DNA from: Gracilimonas mengyeensis
Lineage (GTDB): Bacteria; Bacteroidota; Rhodothermia; Balneolales; Balneolaceae
Assembly (NCBI RefSeq): GCF_900182705.1
Contig: NZ_FXTP01000016.1
Coordinates: forward strand, 1-64,000
Direction of reading: 5' to 3'
DNA length: 64,000 nucleotides
The notes below the pieces were generated by a model. That model did no database searches and had not been told where the DNA came from. It saw only the letters and a program-made list of their open reading frames with translations. This document shows positions 7,603-44,384 of this stretch, one piece after another (positions within the stretch are counted from its first letter, which is position 1; each line of letters starts with the position of its first letter). A program made the translations under genes and the position numbers.

Positions 7603-7641
7603 CTCGTTACGGCGCTCCGCTCCGTAATGCCAACCGGAGGC
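7603..7641. repeat. palindromic repeat family D, copy 1 (short)
   Basis: The hairpin word cgttacggcgctccgctccgtaatg, followed by ccaaccggaggc, lies just before the first toxin-antitoxin pair. Two longer copies occur at 8284-8359 and 9146-9221, each in a gap between toxin-antitoxin modules. This copy diverges after 7641. Confidence 0.75.
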
Positions 7642-8257: not shown

Positions 8258-8283
8258 ATTTCCGGGCTGCGAATGTCTTGCAG

Positions 8284-8359
8284 TCGTTACGGTGCCCTAC
8301 TACGTAATGCCAACCGGGGGCTCTTCCTCAAACTATTTGCCTGATCTGAACTTTTAGCC
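8284..8359. repeat. palindromic repeat family D, copy 2
   Basis: The copy consists of cgttacgg...cgtaatgccaaccggggg followed by ctcaaactatttgcctg and tctgaacttttagcc. Copy 3 at 9146-9221 has the same words at the same spacing with only a few substitutions. It lies between the ParE remnant and the VapBC-like pair. Confidence 0.85.
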
Positions 8360-9069: not shown

Positions 9070-9145
9070 TCTCTTTAAAACAATTAAGAAACCAATCTAC
9101 CTCTAATGGATTGGACGGCTCTGTGACCTTCTCCGGTGCTTATCC

Positions 9146-9221
9146 TCGTTACGGCGCTTTGCTCCATAATGCCAACCGGAGGCTCTGCCTCAAACTATTT
9201 GCTTGGTCTGAACTTTTAGCC
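9146..9221. repeat. palindromic repeat family D, copy 3
   Basis: This copy shares tcgttacggcgct, cataatgccaaccggaggctc, cctcaaactatttgc and tctgaacttttagcc with copy 2. It lies between the VapC gene and the Phd/YoeB pair. Confidence 0.85.
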
Positions 9222-13670: not shown

Positions 13671-14275
13671 CGGTTATTCGCAAATCGTTAATCGAAAATC
13701 GGTCTATCGAAATTCTATTGGAATCAGCATTCAGCTGATTCAAGGTTTCTATGAGTTGTAAGTGAAGAGTCTTTTGAGGCAGAGAGATAATATTCTGCAG
13801 ATTGTTGATTGACCGGTTAGCGATCTGCGAGCGGCGAACTAAATAATCCTGCTAATCCTAAAATCCCGTTAATCATGGTTCAAACAGAATAAACTTAAGC
13901 GACTTTACAACGGACCCTATCTCTGCTCCTTTCCCTCCGGCTCACTTATAACGCATTTTTTCTTTGGCCGCGCCGCAGGGCAAGGGGACGCTTTGGTGAC
14001 AATCTCCTTCTAATTCAAAAATCTTCCGTTTGCGGTGAAGAACTCTTTCTTCCGAGCTGATAAGCGGTAACCAACAGATAGACGATTAATCGATAGACCG
14101 ATTTGCGAGTGGCGATTATTAATTCCTGTTTCAACCTCATTCCGGAGCCAGGTAAAGTGTTAAAAATGGCCTTCGAATTTCCTACCCTCTACAATCCTGC
14201 ACCAGATACTCCCTAAATGTTGCCTAAGCCCGAATTTCCGTTATATTGATGGTATAACATCCTAACGGTATAGCT
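13671..14275. other. intergenic region with repeat fragments
   Basis: There is no gene in these 605 bases. The word 'tcgcaaatcg...aatcggtctatcga' near 13678-13714 returns inverted as 'tcgatagaccgatttgcga' near 14090-14108, which makes the gap a large imperfect dyad. It encloses the phrase 'aatcccgttaatcatggttcaaac' (13862-13885; a related word is at 30477-30492) and family C copy 1 (13912-14000). The last 60 bases probably carry the promoter of the redox operon. Confidence 0.6.
13912..14000. repeat. dispersed repeat family C, copy 1
   Basis: The element begins ggaccctatctctgctcctttccct and ends gggcaaggggacgctttggtga. The same opening and closing words appear at 30151-30283 and 37906-38030. 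The ends are partly complementary (tttccct with agggca/aggg). Confidence 0.75.
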
Positions 14276-30150: not shown

Positions 30151-30283
30151 GACCCTATCTCTGTCTCTTTCCCTAACGCACTTTCATAATCTATTCTCGC
30201 TACTTCAATGGTATTATCTGCAAAAGTACTACCAGCCATTTCAATATCTATGCGCAAAGGGAAAGAAGACGCTTTGGTGAAAA
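30151..30283. repeat. dispersed repeat family C, copy 2
   Basis: It opens gaccctatctctgtctctttccctaacgcac and closes gcgcaaagggaaagaagacgctttggtg-like words (split here for length: gaccctatctctgtctcttt, then aaagggaaagaagacgcttt). The ends ctctttccct and agggaaagaag are inverted. The middle is unique. Confidence 0.75.
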
Positions 30284-30360: not shown

Positions 30361-30418
30361 TAGGCGTCTCCTTCCTTGGCGGACTTGTCCGTTAGGGAAG
30401 GAACAAGGAAGGGTTTCG
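30361..30418. repeat. hairpin repeat family B, copy 1
   Basis: cgtctccttccttggc, then the inner dyad ggac-tt-gtcc, then gttagggaaggaac. The outer words recur at 37804-37857 and 43998-44077, but the inner dyad has a different sequence in each. Confidence 0.85.
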
Positions 30419-30693
30419 GAGGAAAGGGCAAGATCGTTGTATACACCTACAAAAATCAGGCTAATCCAACTATCTTTTAATCATGGTTCAAACTGGAAAT
30501 ATGAAATTGCTTAAAAAAACAGCTTGATCTCTGGCCACAAAACCCACCTCTCAATCTCCTCCCAGGAGGAGAAGCTCCTTAGTTATAAATCAGGCAAAAC
30601 TTAGACTCCAGTTACTTCAAAATTCAATGTTGAATGTTCAATGTTCGATATTCACCGAATTGGATGTTCACCGCACATTTCCTATCATCGGGC

Positions 30694-30822
30694 ATGCAAG
30701 AAAAAACGACCGAACAGGATATAGAACCCAAGTGGATTAAGGAATACACCATTTCCGCGGTACTTGGCGTACTGTTTATTTTGCTCTTCTGGCTGTTCAC
30801 CTCAACCTTCAATCTGCCCTGA
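30694..30822 (+). CDS. small single-span membrane protein upstream of symporter
   Basis: The 42-residue product starts MQEKTTEQDIEPKWIKEY and continues with one transmembrane helix (about residues 19-39, rich in Leu, Ile and Phe). It ends TSTFNLP. The stop codon is three bases before the ATG of the sodium:solute symporter, so the two are cotranscribed. Several SSS-family transporters have small membrane companions (for instance the DUF485 partner of acetate permease), which is the likely analogy; the sequence itself is not of that family as far as I can see. An in-frame upstream start would add an implausible N terminus. Confidence 0.7.
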   Translation: MQEKTTEQDIEPKWIKEYTISAVLGVLFILLFWLFTSTFNLP

Positions 30823-30825
30823 TCT

Positions 30826-32553
30826 ATGAGCTGGATTGACTGGTTGGTTTTGATCGCTTTTTTGGCCTACACCATATGGGATGGTACGCGCCGGGGTAAA
30901 GACTCAGATACCATTGAAGGCTACCTGCTTGCCAATCGCTCCATGCCCTGGTGGGCGGCGGGACTTTCCGTGATGGCCACCCAAGCCTCTGCTATTACGT
31001 TTATAGGCACTACCGGCATCGCATACGTTGAGGATATGCGTTTCGTGCAGACCTACCTGGCCATCCCCTTCGCAATGATTTTCATCTGCATGTTCCTCGT
31101 TCCCTTTTTCAATAAGATGCAGAATTTTACGGCTTACGAGGTACTTGAAGAACGCTTTGGGCTCAAAACCCGCCTCACCACCTCCGGCCTGTTCTTGATT
31201 TCGCGGGGCCTGGCTTTGGGCGTGGTCATTGCTGCTCCTTCTTACGTACTCTCACTGCTGCTCGGACTTCCCCTGAACATCACCATTCTGATCATCGGCA
31301 TCATTGCTACCTTGTACACCACGGTGGGCGGTATCGCCGGCGTCATCAATACCGATGTGAAGCAGATGATTGTGATGATGTTTGGTCTCGTATTTTGCTT
31401 TGGGTTGATCTGGATGTACCTGCCCGAAGAGGTGGGATTTGATGGGGCCCTCTACCTGGCCGGAAGCCTGGACAAACTCACCGCGCTCGACCTGAATTTT
31501 GATCTCACCGAAAAATACAATGTGTGGAGCGGAGTGATCGCCGCCTTCTTCCTGATGGTATCTTACTTTGGCACCGACCAAACCCAGGTTCAACGCTACC
31601 TCACCACAGATTCTGTTAAAAACGCCCGAAAATCTCTGTTGCTTACGGCCTACGCCAAGGTGCCTATGCAGTTCTTCATTTTGCTGCTTGGGGTGATGTT
31701 GTACGTCTTTTTCATCTTTAACAGCGCCCCGGCTTCCTTCCGGGCTTCCGAACCCGTAGCTCAAACCGAACAACAAGTGCAATCGGAGCAGCAAATCCTG
31801 CAACAATATGAGACGGCCCACCAGGCCCGCAAGGAAGCCGCCCTTGAAGCCGTTCAAAGCCGAAACGAATCTACCCAACAGCTTTTTGTAGAAACCGATG
31901 CGGAAATGAATGAGGCACGTGATGCCGAACTGGCCTTGCAGGCAGAAATTCGTCAGGCCGACGTCAACGACACCAACTACATCTTTCCTTATTTCATCCT
32001 CAATTACGTTCCGGTAGGTGTTATTGGCCTGATCGTAGCTGGGATTTTTGCTGCCGCCCTCAGCTCCATCGACAGCGAACTCAATGCACTAACCACTGTC
32101 TCTATTGTAGACTGGTACCAGCGGCTGATTGGTGATGTGCATGACGAGGCGTATTATGTGAAATCTTCTCGTGGTGTTACTTTTTTCTGGGGAGCACTGG
32201 CCACCGGCTCCGCATTGCTGATGGGTGAAACCCGCTCTATCATCGAACTGGTAAATCAAATCGGGAGTTATTTTTACGGCTCAATATTAGGCGTTTTTAT
32301 CCTGCTGCTCTGGGTAAAACGCGCAACCGGAACCGGAGCTTTAGTCGGCTTATTATCCGGAATGCTATCCGTATTCATCTTCGACCGACTTTTCTACAAC
32401 GCCACCTCTGGCGATTATTCTTTTTTCCTGCCATGGAGTACCGTCCCCGAAAGCTATACTAAGGCCATCGAATTCTTATGGTTAAATCCGGTTGGAACCA
32501 CTGTTGTAGTGTGTGTCGGTGTAATCATCAGTTTTATCCATAACAAAGAATAG
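30826..32553 (+). CDS. sodium:solute symporter (SSS family)
   Basis: A 575-residue Na+-coupled transporter with about thirteen hydrophobic helices. SSS features are ANRSMPWWAAGLSVMATQASAITF at about 37-60, GGIAGVINTDVKQM near 168-182 and the SYFGTDQTQVQRYLTT block near 246-262. Residues about 305-383 form a long polar Gln/Glu/Ala-rich insertion with heptad character between two helices, predicted to be a coiled coil. The substrate cannot be read from sequence; sugar, myo-inositol, sialic-acid-like or amino-acid transport are all possible for this subgroup. It follows a 42-residue membrane protein gene by three bases. Confidence 0.92.
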   Translation: MSWIDWLVLIAFLAYTIWDGTRRGKDSDTIEGYLLANRSMPWWAAGLSVMATQASAITFIGTTGIAYVEDMRFVQTYLAIPFAMIFICMFLVPFFNKMQNFTAYEVLEERFGLKTRLTTSGLFLISRGLALGVVIAAPSYVLSLLLGLPLNITILIIGIIATLYTTVGGIAGVINTDVKQMIVMMFGLVFCFGLIWMYLPEEVGFDGALYLAGSLDKLTALDLNFDLTEKYNVWSGVIAAFFLMVSYFGTDQTQVQRYLTTDSVKNARKSLLLTAYAKVPMQFFILLLGVMLYVFFIFNSAPASFRASEPVAQTEQQVQSEQQILQQYETAHQARKEAALEAVQSRNESTQQLFVETDAEMNEARDAELALQAEIRQADVNDTNYIFPYFILNYVPVGVIGLIVAGIFAAALSSIDSELNALTTVSIVDWYQRLIGDVHDEAYYVKSSRGVTFFWGALATGSALLMGETRSIIELVNQIGSYFYGSILGVFILLLWVKRATGTGALVGLLSGMLSVFIFDRLFYNATSGDYSFFLPWSTVPESYTKAIEFLWLNPVGTTVVVCVGVIISFIHNKE

Positions 32554-32614
32554 AATTTTCTATTCTAATTAGTTGGAATCCCACCAAAGCCACACTTTCA
32601 TTTCGATTAAAAAT

Positions 32615-32660
32615 TGCGTAGATAAATGACTACACAATTATATGTAGCTGAATAGCTACA
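32615..32660. promoter_or_regulatory. twin dyads upstream of ArsR-family gene
   Basis: Two GTAG-N8-CTAC dyads are present: tgcgtagataaatgactaca (32615-32634) and tgtagctgaatagctaca (32643-32660). Their centres are 26 bases apart, and the second is a perfect inverted repeat. They lie 21 bases before the ArsR-family start codon, a typical place for autoregulatory operators. Confidence 0.6.
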
Positions 32661-32680
32661 GAATTTATAAACAGGCTACC

Positions 32681-33007
32681 ATGGACTTACGGCGAGATGT
32701 ATTTCAGGCGATTGCTGACCCCACACGGCGAAAAATAATCCGTTTATTGGCTGAAAAGCCTCTTACCGCGGGTTCTATTGCATCTAATTTCGAGAGCTCA
32801 CGGCCTACCATCTCAAAACATGTTCAAATACTAACGGAATGTGAGCTACTCGAAAAAGACCAGAGGGGAAGAAAAATCTATTATCATTTAAATCCCAAAA
32901 AACTGAAAGAAGTAGCCAACTTCCTCGAGCCCTTTCAAAACACATGGAAAACCAAATCCAACAAATTTGAGGATGCCATTCAAAAGTTTAAATCTGATAC
33001 GAAATAG
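32681..33007 (+). CDS. ArsR/SmtB-family transcriptional regulator
   Basis: The 108-residue product is one winged-helix domain: FQAIADPTRRKIIRLLAEKPLTAGSIASNF then SSRPTISKHVQILTECELLEKDQRGRKIYYHLNP, the ArsR pattern closest to the SdpR/YbzH-type branch without the metal-binding cysteines. It therefore probably responds to a protein or non-metal cue. It binds DNA as a dimer; twin inverted dyads just upstream suggest autorepression. It stands alone between the symporter and a DUF5916 gene, either of which may be a target. The C-terminal region after about residue 85 is a charged helix. Confidence 0.9.
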   Translation: MDLRRDVFQAIADPTRRKIIRLLAEKPLTAGSIASNFESSRPTISKHVQILTECELLEKDQRGRKIYYHLNPKKLKEVANFLEPFQNTWKTKSNKFEDAIQKFKSDTK

Positions 33008-33136
33008 CCGGTACTGAATTCTAATCTCTGGTCTTATTTAAATTTTAGTCTGTAACCATTCTTCAACTCCATCGTGTCACAGCTATGAAATTAACATTTC
33101 CATTTCCTTGGCAAACCCTCACCAAGCTTAGTTGTG

Positions 33137-35725
33137 ATGAATCTAAAATACCTGACCTTTCTGTTATGTGGCCTTCTTGTTTCTCAAATTTCTTTTGCCC
33201 AATCTTCTCAAGAAGTAAAAACCTACACCACCCTCAAAGTAAACGGCAATACTCCTAAAATAGACGGCACGATTGACGAACCCGCATGGCAGGATGTGGA
33301 GTGGTCGGGCGATTTCACCCAGCGTAGCCCGGATGACGGAGCCAAGCCTTCTCAGAAAACGGCTTTTAAAATTCTGTATGATGATGAAAACCTGTACGTA
33401 GCTATTCGCGCCTACGATGAGGAGCCCGACAAAATTGTACAGCGACTTTCGCGCCGTGATGGTTTTGAAGGCGATTGGGTGGAAATCAATATCGACAGCT
33501 ACTTTGATAAGCGAACGGCTTACTCTTTTACCGCTTCGGTTTCCGGGGTGAAGGGTGACGAAGCCATCACCAATGATGGTGACAACTGGGATACCACCTG
33601 GGATCCGCTTTGGGATTTAAGCACCAGCATTGACAATGAGGGCTGGATTGCGGAAATGCGCATTCCACTTACCCAATTACGGTTTAATGCCAATGCACAA
33701 CAAGTATGGGGCATCCAGTTAACGCGGCGGCTGTACCGCAATGAAGAACGATCCGTTTGGAGTTATGCGCCACAGGAAGAGTCTGGTTGGGTGCGCCACT
33801 TTGGGGAGTTGCGTGGCATCAATGGCATCACCCCAAAAAAACAAGTTGAGATAGCCCCTTACACGGTAGCCAAAATGGAACGGTATGAAGCAGATGCGGA
33901 CAACCCCTTTTTTGATGGAACCGATGAAAACCTGAGCTTTGGTCTGGATGGTAAGGTGGGTATTTCCAATGATTTTATCCTCGATTTCACCATCAACCCC
34001 GATTTCGGTCAGGTTGAGGCGGATCCATCCGAAGTGAATCTCACTGCTTTTGAAACCTTTTTCCAGGAAAAGCGGCCTTTCTTTATTGAGGGACGAAACA
34101 TCACCAGCTTCCAGATTTCAGGCGGAGGCAACAATTACTCTTCTGATAACCTCTTTTATTCACGCCGTATCGGCCGCTCTCCCCATAATTACCCCGATGT
34201 AGACAGCGATGAAAATGAATATGCACGTGTACCAGAGAGTACTAACATCATCGGTGCGGTTAAGCTTACAGGTAAAACCCGCAACGGTCTTTCTGTTGGG
34301 GTGATGGAAAGTGTGACCGCACCCGAAAAAGCCGACGTATTCCGTGACGGCTCCCACAGCAAAGAACTGGTTGAACCCACCACCAACTATTTTTTGGGCA
34401 GTGTTCAAAAGGAACTGAATGACAATAATACCATTTTGGGCGGGATGTTTACGTCTACGCATCGCTTTACCGACAATCCGAACCTTAACAATTTGAATGA
34501 AAGCGCCTACAGTGGCGGGGTTGAATTCCAGCAGTTTTGGAATGATAAAAAATACTACCTGAGCACCAACCTGGTAATGAGCCAGATTAATGGCACATCC
34601 GAAGCGATTCAGGAACAACAGGAATCTTCCCGCAGATATTTTCAGCGGCCGGATAACGATTACACGACCTACGACACCACCCGAACCAGCCTGACCGGTC
34701 ATGGCGGAATTTTCGAATTTGGCAGGCAAGGCAGCAGCGGTTTCCGGTTTGTGAATTGGGTTACCTGGCGATCGCCCGGACTGGAGCTTAATGACGTTGG
34801 GTACCTTCGACAGGGCGACTCCATCTTCCAGGTATTTTGGGCCAGCTACCGGTTTTCCAATCCCTTTAGCATTTTCAGGTACATGAACCTTAATTTCAAC
34901 CAGTGGACCGGCTGGGACTTTGGGGGAACAAACAATTTTAAAGGAACAAACGTGAATTTCAGCACCCAGTTTACCAATCACTGGTATCTGAACGGCGGGG
35001 TTAATGTAGATGGCGATGAGGTTTCTAACACCTTATTGCGGGGTGGCCCATCATTCCGTTTGCCCGGCGGCTGGAATTACTGGGTAAATGTAGAAACGGA
35101 TGACCGAAAGAAACTCACTTTTGGCCTTTATCATAATCAACGCTGGGGTTTTAGTGATGCTTCAGACCGGCAATATTATGGTATTTACGCCCGCTACCAA
35201 CCTACGGATGGGCTCCGGTTGTCTCTGCAGCCTAATCTCACGAACCGCTTCAATAGCCTACAATATATAACTACGGAAACCTACCAAACCGAAGACCGAT
35301 ATATTTTCGGTTCTATAGACCAGGTAACGGTAGACCTCACCATGCGCATGGACCTGACCCTTTCACCCAATCTAACCATTCAGTATTATGGAGCACCATT
35401 TGTCAGTGCCGTAGACTACTATGATCCCAAGTACGTCACCAATCCCCATGCTGATGATTATTATGACCGGTTTAGTGAAGATGTCTCTTTCTCTGACGAG
35501 GATTTCGAAAATGGCTACGACTTCAACTTTCGTCAATTCCGTTCTAACCTGGTGCTGAGATGGGAATACCGACCCGGCTCTCTTTTATACTTGGTTTGGA
35601 CGCAAGGTCGCACCGAAGAAGCTGAAACCGGAAATTTCTCTTATGGCTCTGATGTGAATGATTTGTTCTCAGCCCATCCGCATAACGTGTTTTTGGTGAA
35701 GCTGTCGTATTTATTTGGGGGATAG
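33137..35725 (+). CDS. DUF5916 protein with carbohydrate-binding-like N-terminal domain
   Basis: The 862-residue secreted protein has a signal peptide (about 1-23, ending ISFAQ), a CBM9-like domain at about 35-215 (PKIDGTIDEPAWQDV, YDDENLYVAIRAYDEEPD) and a long DUF5916 barrel-like region to the C terminus, ending in the aromatic LSYLFGG. Such proteins are abundant in Bacteroidota and relatives, often near peptidases or TonB receptors. They are probably outer-membrane barrels, but the function is unknown. ATG at 33137 is preferred to the adjacent in-frame GTG at 33134. Confidence 0.88.
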   Translation: MNLKYLTFLLCGLLVSQISFAQSSQEVKTYTTLKVNGNTPKIDGTIDEPAWQDVEWSGDFTQRSPDDGAKPSQKTAFKILYDDENLYVAIRAYDEEPDKIVQRLSRRDGFEGDWVEINIDSYFDKRTAYSFTASVSGVKGDEAITNDGDNWDTTWDPLWDLSTSIDNEGWIAEMRIPLTQLRFNANAQQVWGIQLTRRLYRNEERSVWSYAPQEESGWVRHFGELRGINGITPKKQVEIAPYTVAKMERYEADADNPFFDGTDENLSFGLDGKVGISNDFILDFTINPDFGQVEADPSEVNLTAFETFFQEKRPFFIEGRNITSFQISGGGNNYSSDNLFYSRRIGRSPHNYPDVDSDENEYARVPESTNIIGAVKLTGKTRNGLSVGVMESVTAPEKADVFRDGSHSKELVEPTTNYFLGSVQKELNDNNTILGGMFTSTHRFTDNPNLNNLNESAYSGGVEFQQFWNDKKYYLSTNLVMSQINGTSEAIQEQQESSRRYFQRPDNDYTTYDTTRTSLTGHGGIFEFGRQGSSGFRFVNWVTWRSPGLELNDVGYLRQGDSIFQVFWASYRFSNPFSIFRYMNLNFNQWTGWDFGGTNNFKGTNVNFSTQFTNHWYLNGGVNVDGDEVSNTLLRGGPSFRLPGGWNYWVNVETDDRKKLTFGLYHNQRWGFSDASDRQYYGIYARYQPTDGLRLSLQPNLTNRFNSLQYITTETYQTEDRYIFGSIDQVTVDLTMRMDLTLSPNLTIQYYGAPFVSAVDYYDPKYVTNPHADDYYDRFSEDVSFSDEDFENGYDFNFRQFRSNLVLRWEYRPGSLLYLVWTQGRTEEAETGNFSYGSDVNDLFSAHPHNVFLVKLSYLFGG

Positions 35726-35887
35726 GAAATTGGGAATTTTGGATTATGAATTCTAAATCCTGCAAACAAATTCAAAATTCATCATTTACAATTTCCCTGC
35801 ACTTCTTTCACTATCACGAATAATAAAGATTGTGTAACAGCAGTTAAATCATTACACTATTTTCGTGTACACAAAATTCGTGGAATT

Positions 35888-36106
35888 ATGAAAAACATCA
35901 CCTTCAGCGCCGACGAAAAACTAATCGAAAAGGCCCGGCTCAAAGCTGCCAAAGAAAAAACTACGCTTAATAAACGGTTCAGGGAGTGGCTTGCCAATTA
36001 TGCGAAGCAGGGAGACTTGGGAAACAACTATGACAAACTGATGCAAGAACTTAATCATATTGATTCCGGTGGAAAGTTCACAAGGGATGAGATGAATGAG
36101 CGATAA
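35888..36106 (+). CDS. ribbon-helix-helix-like antitoxin (VapB type)
   Basis: The 72-residue protein starts MKNITFSADEKLIEKARLKAAKEKTTLNKRFREWL, an N-terminal strand plus helix-turn-helix pattern of CopG/Arc-type antitoxins, with a polar C-terminal tail that would wrap the toxin. Its final codons overlap the start of the PIN-domain toxin gene by 11 bases. This is a second, separate VapBC locus, 26 kb from the first. A dyad or operator upstream was not evident. Confidence 0.82.
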   Translation: MKNITFSADEKLIEKARLKAAKEKTTLNKRFREWLANYAKQGDLGNNYDKLMQELNHIDSGGKFTRDEMNER

Positions 36107-36524
36107 AGTTTTCTTAGATACCAACATCTTTGCTTACGCTTTTGACCGCACAGATGTGGCAAAACAAGAAAAAGCTTCAGAACTAATAAAAACTCATTTA
36201 GAGAACGGATCTGGCATCATTAGCTACCAGATTGTACAGGAGTTCATCAACGTTTCTTACAGAAAATTCAAAAACCCAATGACTCTTCGGGAGCTCGAGC
36301 AGTATATCGAGAATGTTCTATCCCATATGTGGGAAGTGTATGCCAGTAAAGACCTCATTTATTCAGCCATTGGTATTAAAGAACAATTCAAGTATTCCTT
36401 CTACGACTCCCTCATCATTGCTGCCGCATTAGAGGCAGGCTGCACTACCCTCTACTCCGAAGATTTGCAACACGAGCAGAAAGTTTATTCCGTACAAATC
36501 GTTGATCCATTCGTGGTTGGTTAA
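36096..36524 (+). CDS. PIN-domain (VapC-type) ribonuclease toxin
   Basis: A 142-residue PIN-domain protein with the conserved acidic residues Asp8 (FLDTNIFAYAFD), Glu49 (IVQEFINV), Asp104 (SFYDSLIIAAAL) and Asp123 (YSEDLQ), arranged as in Mg-dependent VapC ribonucleases. Its start overlaps the end of the antitoxin gene by 11 bases, so translation is coupled. Length and all acidic positions look normal, so the module is probably active. Confidence 0.9.
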   Translation: MSDKVFLDTNIFAYAFDRTDVAKQEKASELIKTHLENGSGIISYQIVQEFINVSYRKFKNPMTLRELEQYIENVLSHMWEVYASKDLIYSAIGIKEQFKYSFYDSLIIAAALEAGCTTLYSEDLQHEQKVYSVQIVDPFVVG

Positions 36525-36571
36525 TGGTTATTACCTGAGTTTGATTGAAATTTATCACAAAATCAGAGCGG

Positions 36572-36756
36572 TCATCGCGAGGAGACAAATTGCACACACT
36601 CTGGCTTTATAGTTGCTGACGTGGCGATCTGTTGAATCATAGCAACTCCTTTCCCAAAGTTTCGTTGATATATATCCCAAACGGTATTATGGAGATTGCC
36701 GCGTCGTTGCGCATCTTAAACCTATTTTATTCATTATGAGCTCCTCGCAAGGACGG
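36572..36756. repeat. dispersed palindromic repeat family A, copy 4
   Basis: It starts gtcatcgcgaggagac and ends gctcctcgcaaggacgg. Inside it matches copy 1 in order: 'gtggcgatctgttgaatca', 'tagcaactcctttccc', 'atatatcccaaacggt' and 'gagattgccgcgtcgttgcg'. It fills most of the 308-base gap after the VapC gene. Confidence 0.85.
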
Positions 36757-36832
36757 ATTTTTATGGGATGGTTGATCGTTTTAAAAAAAACATAAAGTGC
36801 ATGCAGGCAAGGCCACAATTAACAAATACCCA

Positions 36833-37708
36833 TTAACCATTCTCCCTCCTGGAAACCTCAATCTCCTCATCATCCCCAAACTTGGCTCCTACCGGCGGAC
36901 GATAAGCCTGGAACGGAATCTTCAACAAATTGCCCAAATCATCATTTTCCTTGGGATCCATGTGGGTATCGATCCCGTATTTCAGCTGCGAGGTATCCTC
37001 AACCTGGGCAAAGGTGCCAAACAGGCGATCCCACACAGCAAAAATGTTCCCGTAATTGGTATCCGTTAGCGGCTGGGTGTAGTGGTGGTGTACTTTGTGC
37101 ATTAGCGGGGTGATGAAGATCCACGATAACGCCCGGTCCATTTTTCGGGGCATATTAATATTTGCGTGCGTCAGATGGGCAAAAAGTGCTGAGATGCTTT
37201 GGTATAGAAACACAATCCAAATAGGCGCTCCAACCGCAATAACCCCAATAATAGTAAATATCATACGGAAAACGGCTTCACCGGGATGATGCCGCAGGCC
37301 GGTTGTCACATCCACGGTAGTATCGCTGTGGTGCACCAGGTGAAACTTCCACATCCACACTACCTTGTGTTCAATCCAGTGGATCAGGTAGGCACCGAAA
37401 AAGTCGAGTAGCATCACCCCAACAATAGCCTGTAGCCAGAATGGCATTTCCACCCACTGCAACACTCCAAATTCATTGGTGGTTACATAATCGGACGACC
37501 AAACCAGCAAGCCGGCAAAAGCCAGCCCAATCACTACAAAAAAGCCGTTTAGCACAAGGTTGATAGCAGCGTGACGTACTTTTTTGTATCCAAATTCAAA
37601 GAGTGGAAAAACGCCCTCAATCACCCAAAATAAAAAGATACCACCGATTAAAATACCGGCCCTGAAGGTAGTGGGTACGTCTTCAAAAAAGTCGATTAGT
37701 GATTCCAT
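36833..37708 (-). CDS. sterol desaturase/fatty acid hydroxylase family protein
   Basis: The 291-residue membrane protein carries the histidine clusters of the di-iron hydroxylase superfamily: HWIEH (110-114), HLVHH (123-127), a later HLTHANI and HKVHHHY near residue 205. These coordinate two irons for oxygen-dependent hydroxylation or desaturation of a lipid. About four hydrophobic helices are present. It is monocistronic in a repeat-rich neighbourhood. The substrate (fatty acid, carotenoid or hopanoid-type lipid) cannot be read from the sequence. Confidence 0.9.
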   Translation of the reverse strand: MESLIDFFEDVPTTFRAGILIGGIFLFWVIEGVFPLFEFGYKKVRHAAINLVLNGFFVVIGLAFAGLLVWSSDYVTTNEFGVLQWVEMPFWLQAIVGVMLLDFFGAYLIHWIEHKVVWMWKFHLVHHSDTTVDVTTGLRHHPGEAVFRMIFTIIGVIAVGAPIWIVFLYQSISALFAHLTHANINMPRKMDRALSWIFITPLMHKVHHHYTQPLTDTNYGNIFAVWDRLFGTFAQVEDTSQLKYGIDTHMDPKENDDLGNLLKIPFQAYRPPVGAKFGDDEEIEVSRRENG

Positions 37709-37803
37709 AGCTTTATATTCTTTTATTCCTCATCAATTGCACACTACTTTTCCCCATTATTTTTTTCAGATGATGGGTTATTGTATACCTCATAACTATA
37801 AAA

Positions 37804-37857
37804 GCGTCTCCTTCCTTGGCGCCCCTGGGCGTTAGGGAAGGAACGAGGATGGGTTTT
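37804..37857. repeat. hairpin repeat family B, copy 2
   Basis: gcgtctccttccttgg, inner dyad cgccc-ct-gggcg, then ttagggaaggaacgagg and atgggttt. The outer stem and flanks match copies 1 and 3, while the inner stem is different but self-complementary. Confidence 0.85.
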
Positions 37858-37905
37858 GTTTTAAAAGTTTATGAAGTTTGTAACTGCTTGCTTCCCTTCG
37901 CAACA

Positions 37906-38030
37906 CGACCCTATCTCTGTCTCTTTCCCTAATGCACTTAAACCAAAAGTAATGAACAACTCCAACAAATCAATATGTAGCTACCACTTTGCTAATTAAT
38001 ACCTCATGCATCTAGGGAAAGAGGACTCGA
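37906..38030. repeat. dispersed repeat family C, copy 3
   Basis: It opens gaccctatctctgtctcttt then ccctaatgcactta and closes ctagggaaagaggactcgatgg. It matches copy 2 at both ends with a unique middle. Confidence 0.75.
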
Positions 38031-38157
38031 TGGTTATTTTATAAATAACTCTACTTTTTAATCTTGAAAAAATACAGAAACGCATTTAGATGAATACATT
38101 ACCATTTTTGGACAAATCAATCAAACTATGGCTATATGGTGCTCAATAAAGCAACAT

Positions 38158-38190
38158 TTCGTTCCAACGCAGAGCGTAGGAACGAGGATT
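38158..38190. repeat. palindromic repeat family E, copy 2
   Basis: cgttccaacgc / gcgtaggaacg form an imperfect hairpin around 'aga', followed by agg. The plan is that of copy 1 at 9852-9900. Confidence 0.55.
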
Positions 38191-38219
38191 AATAAAGGAA
38201 TAAAGTATACATCACCATA

Positions 38220-39248
38220 TCACTTTTCACTGGAAGCCGCCTCATAAATCCGCTCAATGATACTCACTACTTTCATTCCTTCGTATGCATTTGCAGTCGC
38301 TTCACTCAACCCGTTTAAAGTTTCCACCACGTTTTCGATCACATAATGATGATTGGCTGCACTGCCTTTAAAGGGGCCATAGTCGTTGGGCGGATTCGTC
38401 GGCTCCAGCTCGGGCATCTCGTAGTCTTCGATGTGGCAGTACTCAATTTCATTCATGTATTGCCCGCCTACTTTGAAGCTCCCTTTGGTGCCCACCACGG
38501 TGATACTGCTTTCCATATTGGTATCCCAGCAAGAAGTAGAGTAATTGATACTTCCAATGCCGCCTTTAACAAATTCGAACTGCGCAAAACCGGAATCGTC
38601 GAAATCTTTGAGGTCTGGATGGGTGAAGTTTTTCACGATAGATTTGGGTTGCTTCACATCCCCAAACACCCAAAACATAATGTCAATAAAATGACTGAAT
38701 TGAGTATATAAGGCTCCGCCGTCCATATCTTTGGTGCCTCGCCAGGTAGTTCCGCCGTAATATCGATCATCGCGGTTCCAGTAACAGTTTACTTGTACCA
38801 TTAATACGTCACCGATCAGACCTTCATCAATCACCTGTTTCATCCAGACCGATGGCGGACTGTATCGGTTTTGTTTTACCACAAATACTCTTTTCCCGGA
38901 TGATTCCTGTGCGCTTATTACATCCAAACAGGCTTCTTTGGTAATGCCCATGGGTTTTTCAATCACCACATGGTAGCCGGCATTTAACACTTTGATAGCA
39001 TATTCGGTGTGCCAGCCATTGGGTGTACAGATGCAAACCACATCACTTTGGTTGTTATCCTTCTCCAAAAACTCTTCAATGTCGTTGTATGAAGTTGCTT
39101 CTATCCCCAGCTCGTCTGCCTTTTCCAAACTCTCCGGATCAATATCGGTGATGGAAACCAACTCCGAATGGGCGTATTCATGAATGATCTTGGAGTGACG
39201 GCGGCCTATTCTTCCAAAGCCGATAACGGAGAATTTCTTGGACTGCAT
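38220..39248 (-). CDS. Gfo/Idh/MocA oxidoreductase, WlbA/WbpB-like
   Basis: The 342-residue NAD(P)-dependent dehydrogenase starts MQSKKFSVIGFGRIGRRHSK with the Rossmann GFGRIGRRH motif. CTPNGWHTEYAI, HVVIEKPMG with the catalytic lysine, NRYSPPSVWMK and YWNRDDRYYGGTTWRGT strongly resemble WlbA/WbpB, which oxidises UDP-N-acetylglucosaminuronate in the pathway to diaminomannuronic acids of O-antigen. The other Wbp pathway genes are not in the window. The ATG at 39248 is preferred to an in-frame GTG at 39299, which would add a non-conserved leader. Subfamily call is by recalled motif resemblance. Confidence 0.85.
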   Translation of the reverse strand: MQSKKFSVIGFGRIGRRHSKIIHEYAHSELVSITDIDPESLEKADELGIEATSYNDIEEFLEKDNNQSDVVCICTPNGWHTEYAIKVLNAGYHVVIEKPMGITKEACLDVISAQESSGKRVFVVKQNRYSPPSVWMKQVIDEGLIGDVLMVQVNCYWNRDDRYYGGTTWRGTKDMDGGALYTQFSHFIDIMFWVFGDVKQPKSIVKNFTHPDLKDFDDSGFAQFEFVKGGIGSINYSTSCWDTNMESSITVVGTKGSFKVGGQYMNEIEYCHIEDYEMPELEPTNPPNDYGPFKGSAANHHYVIENVVETLNGLSEATANAYEGMKVVSIIERIYEAASSEK

Positions 39249-39436
39249 AAAAAGCTTTTTTAGACTGAAAATTTCTGGTTCTGAAGGTACGTAAATCACT
39301 AAACGGAAGCGAACCAGAACAGCTCATGTGATGATCCATTCTTAGATAGCTTCGCACTATCATAACAAGTTCACTATCAATCGTTAATTAGATATATTGG
39401 TCCTCAAAACGGCCATTTAATCTGCACTTACAACCA

Positions 39437-40045
39437 ATGAGCTCCGTTATGCAAGATTTTTGGAATGATCGCTTTGCCGACAAGGACTTTGTATATGGCA
39501 AAGCTCCCAACGATTTCTTCCGTCAGGAGATTGACAAACTTTCACCGGGCAAGCTCCTGCTTCCGGCAGATGGCGAAGGACGTAATGCCGTATACGCAGC
39601 TAAAAATGGCTGGGAGGTTACGGCTGTTGATTACAGCACCTCCGCCCGACAAAAAGCCCTGCAACTGGCCAAAGAGTTTAACACCGATATCAACTACGAA
39701 CTGGGGAATTTGGCTGAGCATGATTTTGGGGTGAACCGTTTTGATGCTGCCGCTTTCATCTATGTACATCTGCCCCGCTCTATCATCAGTGATGTGTATC
39801 AAAACGTTATTCGAAGCCTCAAAACAGGCGGACATATCATCGTTGAAGTGTACTCAGTGAATCAACTGGGGCGGGATTCCGGCGGCCCCAAAGATAAGCG
39901 TGTGCTTTATACCGAAGAACGACTTCGCAACTTGTTGAGTGGAACCAAAATCCACCAATTAGAAGAAACCGAAATTGACCTCAGCGAAGGAAAATTCCAT
40001 AACGGTAAAGCCATGGTGATTCGGGCACTGGCTACTGTTTTATAA
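39437..40045 (+). CDS. class I SAM-dependent methyltransferase
   Basis: The 202-residue protein shows the TehB/thiopurine-like methyltransferase pattern: FWNDRFADKDFVYGKAPNDFF at the N terminus, LLLPADGEGRNAVYAAKNGW as the SAM-binding motif I and VTAVDYSTSARQKALQLA as motif II. The substrate is not identifiable; proteins of this type are often annotated as tellurite resistance methyltransferases. It is divergent from the sugar dehydrogenase and precedes the nfeD-slipin pair by 101 bases. Confidence 0.88.
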   Translation: MSSVMQDFWNDRFADKDFVYGKAPNDFFRQEIDKLSPGKLLLPADGEGRNAVYAAKNGWEVTAVDYSTSARQKALQLAKEFNTDINYELGNLAEHDFGVNRFDAAAFIYVHLPRSIISDVYQNVIRSLKTGGHIIVEVYSVNQLGRDSGGPKDKRVLYTEERLRNLLSGTKIHQLEETEIDLSEGKFHNGKAMVIRALATVL

Positions 40046-40146
40046 GGCTAAGGGATGTACGAATAAGGCTCCATTTCTTTTTAAAATTCCCTCCGATTGT
40101 TTACTATGAAGGGGAACCTTTTCTATCTGGGATTAATTTTGATAGT

Positions 40147-41505
40147 ATGACGATGAAATGGATACAAAACATATCGCTATCGCTATTTTTAATCGGGGCC
40201 CTGTTGGTTTCTACCTCCAGCTTTGGAAGTGCTTTACAGGTTGATTCTACTGACACAGCATCTGGGAATTCAGTGACGGTAATTTCGGTAGAAGGTGCTA
40301 TTGGTCCAACAACTACTAATTATATCCGGCGGGGATTGGAAACCTCTATTGAGCGAAATGCCGAGGCACTGATTATTGAAATGGATACGCCCGGAGGTTT
40401 ACTCACTTCCACCCAGGACATTGTGCAACTGATGCTTGCTTCTGAAATGCCCATAGCCGTATATGTAACCCCCTCCGGTGGAAATGCCGGAAGCGCCGGT
40501 ACTTTCATCACTCTGGCCGGACATATTGCAGCAATGGCACCTACTACCACCATTGGAGCAGCTTCACCGGTGTCGATGGGCGGCGGACAGCAGGATACGG
40601 TGATGCAGAAAAAGATTTTTAACTACTCCGAAAGCTTCATCGAAAATATCGCCAAGGAACGAGATCGGAATGCCGAATGGGCACGCTCGGCCGTACGCGA
40701 CGGAGAAGCCATCACCGAAACAGAAGCGCTGGAGCTCAATGTGATTGATTTTATTTCCCGGGATTTGGACGAACTGTTAGTTCAAATGGATGGGATGGAA
40801 GTAGAAGGCGAGCCGCTTCAGACGGCTCAAGCCAGTATTGAGCGACTGGAAGAAAGCTTTGCAGAGAAGTTTTTCAGCTTCATCATGCGCCCGGAAATTA
40901 TGCTGATTCTAACCATGGTGGCCATTTATGGCATCGTGGGCGAGGTGACCAATCCCGGCGCTATCGTACCCGGTGTGGCCGGTGTTATAGCACTGATTTT
41001 ATTGTTGTACGGTTCAGCTTCCATGCCCATCAACGTAGCAGGCTTTGTGCTCATTGGCCTGGCTATTGTACTGTTTGTGATTGAAGCTTTTACGCCCACT
41101 TTTGGGATCTTGATAACCGGTGGAGCCGTCTCCTTTTTCCTGGGAGCTCTGATGCTGTTCCAGGAGTTCCCGGCCGAAATGCAGCTCTCATGGTATTGGC
41201 TGGTACCAGCCACTATTCTCACCGTTATCTTTTTTGGATGGATCGCCACCTCGGGCATCAAAATACAATTTACTGAACACCGAACCGGTCTTGAATCGCT
41301 CATCGGCAAAAAAGCCAAAGTGGTGGATACCATTGATCAAAACGGTGGGCGCATCATGATTTCCGGCGAATACTGGAATGCCGTTACCGAAAGCGACGAA
41401 AAAATTAAATCTAACCAATGGTGCGAGATTGTCCGTTTTGAAGGACTCACCGTAACTGTTAAACCTCACAAACCAAATAAGGAGATTGACCATGGAGTCA
41501 ACTGA
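40147..41505 (+). CDS. nfeD: NfeD-family membrane serine protease (ClpP-class)
   Basis: A 452-residue protein with a signal/anchor (about 10-28), a ClpP/crotonase-like protease domain (about 42-215) with the serine motif GGNAGSAGTF (Ser116) and a Lys near 155-156 as the dyad partner, four C-terminal membrane helices (about 245-360) and a soluble NfeD OB-fold domain (about 380-452). The archaeal homologue PH1510 cleaves the tail of stomatin, and here the stomatin-like gene follows with a 14-base overlap. The pair is a conserved membrane-quality-control unit. The word taattttg at 40134-40141 resembles a Bacteroidota -7 element just before the start. Confidence 0.92.
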   Translation: MTMKWIQNISLSLFLIGALLVSTSSFGSALQVDSTDTASGNSVTVISVEGAIGPTTTNYIRRGLETSIERNAEALIIEMDTPGGLLTSTQDIVQLMLASEMPIAVYVTPSGGNAGSAGTFITLAGHIAAMAPTTTIGAASPVSMGGGQQDTVMQKKIFNYSESFIENIAKERDRNAEWARSAVRDGEAITETEALELNVIDFISRDLDELLVQMDGMEVEGEPLQTAQASIERLEESFAEKFFSFIMRPEIMLILTMVAIYGIVGEVTNPGAIVPGVAGVIALILLLYGSASMPINVAGFVLIGLAIVLFVIEAFTPTFGILITGGAVSFFLGALMLFQEFPAEMQLSWYWLVPATILTVIFFGWIATSGIKIQFTEHRTGLESLIGKKAKVVDTIDQNGGRIMISGEYWNAVTESDEKIKSNQWCEIVRFEGLTVTVKPHKPNKEIDHGVN

Positions 41506-42292
41506 AATCTTTTCAGGCTACATTACCTGGATTATAACACTGGTAGTATTTCTTGTGTTATTAGCCCCGCAAATTTTTAAAATTCTGCGTGAATATGAAC
41601 GGGCCGTAGTCTTTAGGCTGGGTAAATTTCAAAGTGTGAAAGGCCCCGGGCTGATAGTACTGATTCCGTTTATTGATAAAGTGGAACGCGTTGACTTACG
41701 TGTGCTTACCATCAACGTAGACCGTCAGGAAGTAATCACCAAAGACAACGTGACCGTAAACGTGGATGCCATCACCTTTTTCCGTGTGGTAGATGCCGAG
41801 GCCGCTGTGATTCAGGTAGAACGCTACATCCACGCAACCTCTATGCTGGCTCAAACCACACTGCGTAGCATTATTGGACAGGTGGAGCTGGACGAACTAC
41901 TGGCGAACCGTGAGAAAATTAACAAACAGATTCAGCAAAACATTGATACCCAAACCGATCCCTGGGGTATTAAGGTAGTTTCGGTGGAGGTTCGTGACGT
42001 AGTACTTCCCGAAAATATGAAACGTGCTATGGCCCGTCAGGCTGAAACCGAGCGTGATCGTCGTGCTAAAGTGATTAATGCCGAAGGTGAATTCCAGGCT
42101 GCCGAACGGTTAGTGGATGCTGCCAAGATGATTGAAACAGCACCGGCTGCCTTACAGCTGCGCTTTCTGCAAACCATGAATGAAATCAGCGAGGAAAACG
42201 CGACCTTTGCCTTCCTCCCGCTGCCTATGGATTTCCTGGAAGCGTTCCGGAAAATGAATGGGGGCGATAGCAGTTCCGACAAGAAAGAATAA
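41492..42292 (+). CDS. slipin/stomatin-like SPFH protein
   Basis: The 266-residue product has an N-terminal membrane hairpin or helix (about 8-28) and an SPFH/band-7 domain: REYERAVVFRLGKFQSVKGPGL, VDLRVLTINVDRQEVITKDN and the RAKVINAEGEFQAAERL coiled tail. Slipins form membrane scaffolds cleaved by NfeD proteases. The ATG at 41492 is favoured by ggag 8-11 bases upstream (41481-41484) and by the conserved beginning; a TTG six bases earlier is less likely. A terminator follows at 42324-42353. Confidence 0.92.
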   Translation: MESTEIFSGYITWIITLVVFLVLLAPQIFKILREYERAVVFRLGKFQSVKGPGLIVLIPFIDKVERVDLRVLTINVDRQEVITKDNVTVNVDAITFFRVVDAEAAVIQVERYIHATSMLAQTTLRSIIGQVELDELLANREKINKQIQQNIDTQTDPWGIKVVSVEVRDVVLPENMKRAMARQAETERDRRAKVINAEGEFQAAERLVDAAKMIETAPAALQLRFLQTMNEISEENATFAFLPLPMDFLEAFRKMNGGDSSSDKKE

Positions 42293-42323
42293 GCAAGCTT
42301 AACGACGTAGAAAGACGATATGA

Positions 42324-42353
42324 AGCCCCGGTGATTGCTCATCGGGGTTTTTA
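42324..42353 (+). terminator. intrinsic terminator after nfeD-slipin operon
   Basis: agccccggtga (42324-42334) pairs with tcatcggggtt (42339-42349) apart from one mismatch, and T residues follow. Confidence 0.8.
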
Positions 42354-42629
42354 TTTAGATGCCTATTCGAACATCTCACATCCCCCTGCAAATGAGCAAG
42401 CTCATTTCCGGTCCCTCTTCAAAGAGGGACTTCTCCTTAGTTATTTAGGATGTAATTCTAACACCTAAACTTGCTTATGTTTTAGCTCTCTTTTAAAAGA
42501 ATTCTCCCTTTGAAGGGAGACCGCTTTGATGCTTCAGCATCAAAGCAGAGTATGTGGTATTAGGGTAACACAGCGTAATTCAAACTCTTTGCTCTTCTTA
42601 TTACATACGGCTCAGCAAGTCGAGGCACA
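42354..42629. repeat. intergenic palindromes
   Basis: The gap contains small hairpins: aatgagcaagctcatt (42391-42406), gtccctcttcaaagagggac (42411-42430) and ttctccctttgaagggaga (42501-42519), plus 'gatgcttcagcatc' (42528-42541). The 'ctccttagttat' word recurs near 30570, and the first dyad resembles one near 366-384. No gene is present. Confidence 0.6.
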
Positions 42630-43895
42630 TCACTCCTCAATAGCATCTTGCTGGTAATACTGCATGGCCTTCCAAAAACAAATCGTAGCCAGCACTCCGC
42701 AAACCGTAAACACAAGCAACAGTGCTTTGGAAGGACCATATGTGCCCGTAAAAACATGATCAATCATCCAGCCGGTGGCGGGTGGACCAATTCCAAAACC
42801 CACAATGCTAATCACAAATAGATACACGGCACCGGCCATTCCGCGCATGTCAGGTTTCACAAAATATTGGATGAGCGCCGCAGCCACGCCGTTATAGGAG
42901 GAAGAAATCACATTGGCCGTTCCCACTAATAAAAATGCCACCAGGGCCGACTCAGCCATCAACCCGAAAAAATAGAAGGGCAGTCCGCCCAGTGCGGCAA
43001 CCATACCCATCACAAATCGTTTTTCTGGGCCCCATTTTGTAGCCAGTTTATCTGCCAGCCAGCCGGATGCATTGACACTCAACCCGGTTAAAAACATAAA
43101 CCAGCCGTATTGCGCAATGAGCGAGGGAGTTTGAAAGGTGTCGTTCAGCACCGTGCCGATAAAAGCCAGAATGGTATACCCACTTAAGGCCAGCAAAGAA
43201 AATCCCGCCAAGTGATACTGAACAGCTTGTTTTCGCAGGATGAATTTCAGCACTTCAAAAAAGCGTAATGCCTGCACTCCCTCCCCTTTCTTTTTTCGGG
43301 AAGGTTCACGGATCAATAAAAACCCAATGATAGCCAAGAAAATACCGGGCCAGCCTACGGTTTTCATAGCCTGGCGCCAGTCGTAGGCTTCGGCCACGGA
43401 GCCGCCAATCAAAAAAGAACATCCCACCCCAATAAAAATCCCCGAAGCATAGACCGAAAACACCCGTGCCCTTTTTTCGGGGTGAAAATAATCGGCCAGC
43501 AATGAATACACGGCGGGACTTAAAGCAGACTGGCTCACTCCTACAAACAATCGCGCAGTCACCAAAAAGGCAAAAGAACTGGCGAAACCGCTGGCTACTG
43601 TCATCAGGCTCCAGATGAGCAATCCGGAAAGAATAATGCGCTTGCGGGAAAAGCGATCGGCGAACCATCCCATAAAAATGCCGCAGATGGCGTAGATGAG
43701 GGAGAACGCAGGTCCGTATAATACTCCGATTTGGGTATTGGTGAAACCCAGGTCATCCCGGATGGCCGTCCCCAAAACCGCTACGATCTGGCGATCTACA
43801 AAGCTGGTGATATAAATGAAAAATAGAAGCGCCAGCACCAGCCAGGCGTACCACTGCGGGAATTTGTTTTCAAATTTGCCGTAGAAAAATTTCAT
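42630..43895 (-). CDS. MFS transporter
   Basis: The 421-residue inner-membrane protein has twelve predicted helices and MFS signatures: YGPAFSLIYAICGIFMGWFADRFSRKRII in loop 2-3, containing the G...DR..RK pattern, and FVDRQIVAVLGT in helix 1. It resembles the spinster-like/hexuronate transporter branch, but the substrate is not readable. It is monocistronic. The start is the ATG giving the normal cytoplasmic N terminus before helix 1. Confidence 0.9.
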   Translation of the reverse strand: MKFFYGKFENKFPQWYAWLVLALLFFIYITSFVDRQIVAVLGTAIRDDLGFTNTQIGVLYGPAFSLIYAICGIFMGWFADRFSRKRIILSGLLIWSLMTVASGFASSFAFLVTARLFVGVSQSALSPAVYSLLADYFHPEKRARVFSVYASGIFIGVGCSFLIGGSVAEAYDWRQAMKTVGWPGIFLAIIGFLLIREPSRKKKGEGVQALRFFEVLKFILRKQAVQYHLAGFSLLALSGYTILAFIGTVLNDTFQTPSLIAQYGWFMFLTGLSVNASGWLADKLATKWGPEKRFVMGMVAALGGLPFYFFGLMAESALVAFLLVGTANVISSSYNGVAAALIQYFVKPDMRGMAGAVYLFVISIVGFGIGPPATGWMIDHVFTGTYGPSKALLLVFTVCGVLATICFWKAMQYYQQDAIEE

Positions 43896-43997
43896 GGCTC
43901 AAAGATAGAATACTGATGGCTGGGATTGAAGAATCTTTTTTGATATGGTGATTAGGTGATATGGTAATTTTCTGATAAAGTAATTTAATGTTTTACA

Positions 43998-44077
43998 AAC
44001 GTCTCCTTCCTTGGCGCTCCGAACCACCGGAGGCGTTAGGGAAGCCCCGAAATCGGGATAAAGTCAGGATGGGTTTA
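43998..44077. repeat. hairpin repeat family B, copy 3
   Basis: aacgtctccttccttggc, inner dyad gctccg-aaccac-cggag, gcgttagggaag, then an extra dyad ccccgaaatcggg and aggatgggttt. The inner stem differs from copies 1 and 2 but is again self-complementary. Confidence 0.85.
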
Positions 44078-44111
44078 GAGCGAAAGGCTTTATGATTTTA
44101 ACAGCAAATAC

Positions 44112-44261
44112 AAGATCTTTTCAAGTTGTACTTGAAAAGCGCAAGTAATTAAAGGCTTAGCCTTCAGTCGGATGTAAAGATGGAACGTGGCATAGTTGAT
44201 ATGAATGCAAGGCACAGCCTTGCCGGACTTTTACTTTTGAAGTACAACTTCAAAAGATCTT
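44112..44261. repeat. 150-bp element with long terminal inverted repeats
   Basis: The left end aagatcttttcaagttgtac (44112-44131) is the reverse complement of gtacaacttcaaaagatctt (44242-44261) except for one position. The pairing extends inward through cttgaaaag / cttttgaag and an 'aaggctTAGCCTT' versus 'AAGGCacAGCCTT' pair. The layout is of a MITE or long-stem palindrome; no target duplication is obvious. Confidence 0.8.
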
Positions 44262-44384
44262 ATTGGATCATTTTTTAGCTTATTCACCAATCAAAAATTT
44301 CCTTGAGAAAAATTCTACATGAACGTGCCGAAATGTTTATTTTTTAGGCTCACTAAATTTTAAGTAAACACTCACTCATAAATC

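Follow-up and report, generated by a model that had tools for sequence, protein, structure and literature searches.

Palindromic repeat doublets of Gracilimonas mengyeensis are associated in related genomes with stand-alone DUF559 nuclease genes

The window analysed here, bases 1–64,000 of contig C16 (NZ_FXTP01000016.1) in the 4.67-Mb assembly of Gracilimonas mengyeensis (33 contigs, 97.5% complete), carries three copies of a short palindrome, family B, in each of which a constant frame encloses a different self-complementary core. In related genomes the same hairpins stand on both sides of a gene for a DUF559 protein (Pfam PF04480), a Vsr-like nuclease, and the type of repeat follows the lineage of the nuclease; both the association and the lineage matching are strong. 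Family B probably belongs, at about two chances in three, to a widespread class of selfish repeats resembling the REPINs (doublets of repetitive extragenic palindromic, or REP, sequences) and served, where REPINs have a transposase, by a dedicated gene for a stand-alone DUF559 nuclease. That nuclease would then be what mobilises the repeats.

Eight good copies of family B are present in the genome: three in the window, two on contig C1 and one each on C4, C6 and C12. A sequence-only model built from these eight recovers them at 53–77 bits, by construction, and finds no further strong copy in the genome, the next match scoring 29.7 bits. When 57 relatives were searched, ten genomes were matched, namely nine of the ten of the genus (G. 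mengyeensis included) and, weakly, one elsewhere in the family; G005 is the only one of the ten genus genomes with no model match to the hairpin. The copies in relatives lie approximately 640–700 bp apart, and the interval holds a DUF559 gene, the product of which scores 105.7 bits against PF04480 (cut-off 20.6). An integron attC array, prompted by the even spacing of about 650 bp, was dropped because the interval is the DUF559 gene. At eight loci in five genomes of the genus (L139–L146) a B hairpin is found on each side of this gene in the same orientation; L144 and L145 look orthologous, and the gene of L143 is interrupted.

The 57 genomes hold 96 PF04480 matches, with DNA for 95. Repeats were sought at E<1e-6 between the two 700-bp flanks of each gene, frames of up to 260 aa being counted as stand-alone and those of more than 400 aa as fused. 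Direct repeats flank 32 of the 35 stand-alone genes in the genus, 24/44 in the rest of the family and 1/5 in the rest of the order; none of the 11 fused domains has them. Control open reading frames (at least 90 aa, from the window and 20 other stretches, more than 1.5 kb from any DUF559 gene) had flanking direct repeats in three of 91 cases, and in two of 31 when restricted to 90–200 aa (Fisher 5e-23 and 7e-13, respectively). Ten further control frames near DUF559 genes yielded three. The repeats beside the nuclease genes are rich in hairpins, with a longest perfect stem of 7.9 bp versus 5.2 bp in shuffled sequence, and 36 of 65 loci exceed all 20 of their shuffles.

The lineage comparison covered 65 repeat-flanked nucleases, 19 pairs with similar outer flanks being excluded. 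Among pairs of non-orthologous loci, similar repeats were seen in 5 of 1811 when the nucleases are less than 50% identical and in 68 of 250 above that value. The count is 13/129 at 50–60% identity, 17/58 at 60–70%, 30/54 at 70–80%, 7/8 at 80–90% and 1/1 above 90%, and the repeat type thus follows the nuclease lineage.

By its family, DUF559 is expected to be a Vsr/EDxHD-like nuclease of the PD-(D/E)XK fold. Two nucleases of solved structure match its profile: 3hrl, which is endonuclease-like (5e-28), and 3r3p, a "mobile intron protein" (1e-6) that we take to be I-Bth0305I. Residues of catalytic type are retained among the 65 repeat-flanked proteins (D, E-x-D and D in 100%, E and H in 98%), their mapping to Vsr being by motif only and following the available part of the account of VsrA, a DUF559 protein of Caulobacter (PMC12907096). 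None of the seven DUF559 proteins of G. mengyeensis itself shares more than 43% identity with the B nuclease, compared with 75–100% for members of the B lineage, and no B hairpin was found in the 1.5-kb flanks of these seven genes. The window copies are orphans, because the genome is without a nuclease of the B lineage.

The unit also differs in presence between species. A doublet–gene–doublet unit of approximately 816 bp occurs in G001 and G007 (94% identity across the 3.3-kb locus), and the same gene junction is found without the unit in G005, G006 and G008, where 64, 10 and 15 bp, respectively, lie between the flanking matches. In the closest relative a second candidate site (L198) is broken off by the ends of contigs. 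For the window copy at 43996, the model gave no match at the corresponding place in nine loci of the genus, that of G009 being cut by a contig end.

The earlier note on this DNA had proposed selection for pairing, either in DNA as the target of a transposase or nuclease or in RNA, and had advised a search for a REP-associated tyrosine transposase (RAYT). The DNA branch of this proposal pointed in the right direction, the companion gene in related genomes being the DUF559 nuclease and not a RAYT. Five Y1 transposase (Y1_Tnp) genes are present in the genome, and none has a family-B hairpin within 1.5 kb. The flank test finds direct repeats at two of them and inverted repeats at three (one weak, E 1e-4), all of other families and one with a GTAG tag, which serves both as a positive control for the test and as evidence against a RAYT as the family-B enzyme; that candidate was rejected. 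An ordinary REP family moved by a RAYT is therefore a very improbable description of family B, in spite of the REP/REPIN-like size, extragenic position and head-to-head doublets of the repeat and the availability of five Y1 genes. Three other hairpin repeats of the window (TCGTTACGG...CGTAATGCC; 7598–7641, 8278–8359 and 9140–9221) are arranged around a PIN-domain gene (8668–9069) and are similar to inverted hairpins that adjoin one of the Y1 transposase genes (C11:102471, L023).

The family-B palindrome is the right unit of a REPIN-like doublet, in which two inverted hairpins have their GCGTC tags facing each other and their tails, ending in GGGTY, outermost. The base before GTC varies in some copies, the stem starts with TCC and the tail is GAACAAGGATGGGT. 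The left unit is the inverted homologue of the right one, with the tail GACCCTATCTCTGTC, and it is found within 330 bp upstream of 29 of the 41 right-unit hairpins collected. At one locus the inverted ends read AGGACCC/GGGTCCT, a feature that was tested as one of a miniature inverted-repeat transposable element derived from an insertion sequence.

The three palindromes described by the earlier note, with a shared frame and different paired cores, are all present, at 30361, 37804 and 43998, and the exact frame CGTCTCCTTCCTTGG occurs five times in the genome, three of these in the window. Copy 1 (30361..30416, plus strand), recognised by sequence, by the model and by BLAST match to the repeats flanking DUF559 in relatives, has the tag GCGTC, the stem TCCTTCC/GGAAGGA, a TTGG/TTAG block, the core CGGAC/GTCCG and the tail GAACAAGGAAGGGTTT. 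Its left unit (30151..30274, minus strand) has the tail GACCCTATCTCTGTC, the arms CTCTTTCCCT and AGGGAAAGAAG and the tag GACGC; the GACCCTATCTCTGTC end at 30151–30182 agrees with DUF559-flanking repeats at 97% over 30 bp and is also the repeat D7 of the window listing. Copy 2 (37801..37856, plus strand) has the core CGCCC/GGGCG, and approximately 50 bp away, tail-to-tail with it, is a left unit (37907..38031, minus strand; BLAST match at 37907–37938, 100% over 25 bp) whose second arm, GAGTCCTCTTTCCCT, lies near 38012 on the same strand. The order of right unit and left unit across 37801–38031 is the order seen around a DUF559 gene, here with no gene between, from which we surmise that the pair may be a gene-less remnant of the element. 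Copy 3 (43996..44080, plus strand) has a longer core, CTCCG/CGGAG, followed by a second small hairpin CCCCGAAATCGGG and a tail, AGTCAGGATGGGTTT, unlike that of the other copies. The description of the outer frame as fixed holds in part: the frame is constant, yet it is itself paired, consisting of the 7-bp outer stem TCCTTCC/GGAAGGA and the almost invariant TTGG/TTAG block. Folded as single-stranded DNA, the three window copies are only moderately better than their shuffles (z of -2.5, -2.9 and -1.7).

Covariation of the inner stem was examined in an alignment of 38 columns and 11 distinct rows, made from 13 copies that share the commonest core type and come from seven genomes; the window copy at 43998, with its longer core, is not part of this set. 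Paired cells make up 97.0% versus 90.4% after shuffling, cells changed on both sides number 10 versus 3.6, and the covariation score is 0.192 versus 0.053; in each of these three measures none of 500 shuffles was as high. Structures slid along the alignment as controls were 43–58% paired. Of the five measures, the remaining two (pairs changed on both sides, 331/500 shuffles; further pair types, 126/500) do not reach significance, because only two base pairs carry the signal, those of columns 17/24 (C-G, T-A and G-C) and 18/23 (C-G, G-C, A-T and one G-T). Permutation of whole 3′ arms over the inner three positions gives 37 Watson-Crick pairs of 39 against 24.9 expected (p<=1e-5), and 22 of 24 against 13.9 (p=2.6e-4) when only the eight distinct cores are used. 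Three rows of the same core type had been missed by the pattern (L123, fully paired; L081, one mismatch; C4:178727, three of five paired), and with these added the count is 44/48 against 30.8 (p<=1e-5). In these copies the inner dyads do covary, at two base pairs; a genome-wide alignment in which they did not was what the earlier note would have taken as refutation.

Of the claim that pairing and not sequence is selected, the persistence of pairing under sequence change is supported, subject to the following cautions. An intermediate core, CGCCC/GCGCG in G009, is half-way between two fully paired cores. Other family-B copies hold wholly different cores, and even within a single locus the cores of the two doublets can be entirely different (G004:C17); left and right hairpins seem to trade complete cores in block, and such exchange to contribute to core variation. 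The independent covariation events are few and are limited by the kinship of the copies, so that caution is required, and complementary changes could also arise without selection through hairpin-templated repair.

Covariation is the signal that RNA finders look for, and the TTGG/TTAG block would form a continuous helix with G.U pairs in RNA, so that the hairpins might act in transcripts as a small RNA, a terminator or a messenger RNA element. A further point in favour of this comes from whalefall-1, a family of the same class that is rated a certain RNA by its authors in the part of the report available (PMC2864571), according to which this RNA is confined to a metagenome from a whale fall. 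We nevertheless consider selection of pairing in RNA quite improbable. Each of the three window copies is placed differently with respect to the open frames beside it, inverted hairpin doublets occupy both flanks of the nuclease genes and vary in presence between species, and the hairpins of other DUF559 genes are often perfectly Watson-Crick.

Whalefall-1 itself can be placed. An Rfam search of the window gave no match over the family-B copies and a single match elsewhere, to whalefall-1 (RF01762; 42377–42432, 38.9 bits), within another DUF559-associated doublet (42371..42550, minus strand). The 180-bp repeat around this match also occupies both flanks of two DUF559 genes of the same genome, at C7:202644 and C11:34401. 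A scan of 52 DUF559 loci gave whalefall-1 matches at E<=0.01 in 12, above the gathering score in five, and in several on both sides of the gene, and no match was found in 13 core-gene loci (62 kb). The 57 genomes contain 182 matches in 16 genomes, of which at least 24, at 14 or more genes, are no more than 1 kb from a DUF559 match, against an expectation of 0.45; two places that match on both strands account for four of these 24 rows. DUF559 is present in 14 of the 16 genomes with whalefall-1 versus 31 of the 57 overall (Fisher 0.0025). In G031 the matches occur in facing pairs, two of which enclose a DUF559 gene (C3:76060–76817), and the family is young and abundant there. Contigs C2 and C5 of G031 bear about 40 of the matches listed, many of them in facing pairs approximately 30 bp apart. 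Whalefall-1 belongs to the class of DUF559-associated hairpin repeats, which suggests that the "RNA" is DNA of a nuclease-associated element.

For the preferred reading, in which the nuclease spreads its own repeats, the following scheme may be drawn. The full element would be a nuclease gene between two doublets, and single doublets or hairpins would spread as its non-autonomous copies. A DNA hairpin would extrude, or would form in single-stranded DNA of the lagging strand; the nuclease would read the paired shape plus the fixed frame and nick the hairpin; and from the free end host repair would copy the doublet, or else the entire element, into a new place. An enzyme that reads shape and frame would leave a constant frame with changing yet paired cores. 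Of 38 B-lineage hairpins, 35 have T.G and three have C-G as the first pair inward of the outer stem, in the context CTTGG. Vsr nicks at T.G in CTWGG, and this mismatch is a plausible nick site in the B lineage; as a class-wide nick site it is unsupported outside that lineage. The bolder proposal of a new bacterial mobile element found in many phyla, whose palindromic doublets are spread by a Vsr-like nuclease without transposase or recombinase, through nicking of extruded hairpins, in the B lineage at the conserved T.G mismatch, and copying by host repair, is tentative, and we would place it somewhat below even odds.

The association extends to other phyla. A 17-base exact-frame scan of 84,980 named genomes matched 72 stretches, four of which (L041, L044, L065 and L081) continue as family-B hairpins, three in Balneola sp. 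EAC52 and one in a metagenome-assembled genome of the Balneolaceae. The remainder are taken to be chance matches, with no second arm in those inspected for one. They nevertheless provided a wider sample of 38 genomes, 15 with DUF559 (34 matches, DNA for 30). Ten of its 19 testable stand-alone genes have flanking direct repeats and three more have inverted repeats only (13/19), while none of seven fused genes has any; three further genes are at contig ends, and one of 286 aa, without a repeat, belongs to neither class. The taxa of this sample include Rhizobium, Xanthobacteraceae, Hyphomonas, SAR202, Fimbriimonas, Fibrobacteres and Leptolyngbya. A link of the alphaproteobacterial cases to the published CGTC-tagged REPs was rejected, the hairpins flanking DUF559 genes there being of the CCTCTCC type instead.

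Within a plasmid collection, 33 records hold a related protein. Ten were examined, and flanking repeats at E<1e-6 were found in six, those of Neisseria gonorrhoeae, Sinorhizobium meliloti, Picosynechococcus PCC 7002, Sphingomonas, Sphingobium (counted by its inverted repeat, since its stronger direct match looks coding) and Deinococcus aetherius; the repeat of Deinococcus NW-56 is borderline (3e-6). The DUF559 gene on pSymB of S. meliloti is flanked by a 114-bp inverted repeat of two palindromes, which seems to resemble RIME1, one of the rhizobial RIME elements. A search of the N. gonorrhoeae locus for the ATTCCC...GGGAAT repeat found none. On a plasmid of Sphingomonas parapaucimobilis (L335) the DUF559 gene, with hairpins on both sides, lies between sufB and sufC, and on two Deinococcus plasmids (L338 and L341) it lies among hpa genes. 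Two records labelled as plasmids, NZ_CP119142.1 (N. gonorrhoeae, 2.2 Mb) and NZ_CP141089.1 (E. coli, 4.9 Mb), are of a size that suggests chromosomes.

These results must be weighed against a different relation of gene and repeat, in which DUF559 is a passenger of the homing type and the repeats spread otherwise, by a RAYT acting in trans, by slippage or by recombination, and serve it as safe landing or recombination sites. The family is related to the mobile-intron nuclease 3r3p, a DUF559 gene is called a member of the EDxHD homing family in the available text of PMC9403480, direct repeats permit loss and gain of a gene by recombination, and family B persists in G. mengyeensis without its nuclease. 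The passenger relation does not account well for repeat types that track nuclease lineage at non-orthologous loci, for the one readable site, where the whole unit is missing with no lone repeat left, or for the other repeats carried by the Y1 transposase genes, and we regard it as unlikely, although it is the most serious of the alternatives.

Several observations weigh against the preferred reading. The right hairpin at G005:C8 (L183) is of another kind, although the nuclease there is 80% identical to that of the B lineage. Among repeats with relatives elsewhere, a doublet is closest to its own partner across the gene in 36 of 54 cases, which simple REPIN insertion does not predict; in most of the 18 other cases, where the nearest relative is elsewhere, the loci are near-identical ones of sister species. 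The control frames come mainly from the same stretches, and the DUF559 genes lie in roomier intergenic DNA than most of them. Outside the genus, 24 stand-alone genes of the family and order have no detectable direct repeats, and of the ten plasmid-collection loci those of E. coli, Synechocystis and Azospirillum have no flanking repeats. No target-site duplication is readable at the site of the 816-bp unit, where the duplication and the exact insertion ends are obscured because the intergenic flanks of the relatives are too diverged. The T.G mismatch is not general either, any G.T being found in 17 of the 65 best stems.

The window has other repeats. One at 13912..14002 (plus strand) is a partial copy, like the left half of a family-B repeat, with 71% identity over 94 bp to a DUF559-flanking repeat in G004; it was also picked up as repeats D7 and D11 in the window repeat listing. 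A hairpin of the CTCCTCC type at 30542..30584 (plus strand) is 84% identical over 43 bp to a repeat flanking a DUF559 gene in G007. A dispersed repeat with ends like GTCCTTGCGAGGAGC...CGACGCGGCAATCTCC is found at 1424–1566 and 36557–36770 and has many copies in the genome, with a cluster at C5:216864–218356. Another, at 44111–44262, has copies on C11, C12, C22 and C5 and is partly inverted within the window too. An open frame of 1906 aa (46599–52319) contains internal repeats approximately 792 bases apart and has what we take to be the look of repeated lamin-tail-type domains.

Many bacterial genomes are dotted with short palindromes of unexplained origin, and an enzyme gene matched to them by lineage makes the question directly testable. 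If the bolder proposal is true, the missing enzyme would be supplied for a large part of the palindromic repeats without a transposase, and at least one published "non-coding RNA" (whalefall-1) would be reclassified as element DNA. A function would also be gained for DUF559, which is very widespread and carries the annotation unknown or Vsr-like. There is also a warning in it, namely that hairpins may covary without being RNA; covariation was the ground on which whalefall-1 had been classed as RNA. A literature search that took in few subscription papers and no preprints found no report of the pairing of DUF559 with hairpin repeats, and an element of this kind is apparently undescribed. The nearest in print are the account, in the accessible part of PMC12308824, of transposase/DUF559 segments as recombination hotspots in Legionella and the assignment of a DUF559 gene to the EDxHD homing endonucleases in PMC9403480.

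Compared with known systems, family B is closest in form to REPs and REPINs with their RAYT (TnpA-REP). Both are short extragenic palindromes with a conserved tag, arranged as head-to-head doublets, with several families per genome and a dedicated gene flanked by its own repeats. Unlike that system, the gene encodes a Vsr-like nuclease and not an HUH transposase, the tag is GCGTC instead of GTAG, and whole doublets, often of 100–250 bp, flank the gene in direct orientation. The CGTC-tagged REPs, which according to the available text of Di Nocera et al. 2013 have an unpaired CGTC (or TGTC, CCTC) at one end, form head-to-head dimers and are stated to have no dedicated transposase, share with family B the CGTC at one end and the head-to-head doublets; family B differs from that description by the absence of a paired AT at stem positions 1–2 and of a CCA tail (PMC3733652). 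The EDxHD, or Vsr-like, homing endonucleases, as far as they are covered in the accessible portion of PMC9403480, are of the same nuclease family, whereas DUF559 is here accompanied by its own palindromic repeats, and no intron, intein or host-gene target was seen at these loci. Rfam whalefall-1 is like family B in forming hairpin doublets that flank DUF559 genes in relatives, with one copy in the window, and differs in being another sequence family, the family-B copies scoring below its gathering cut-off.

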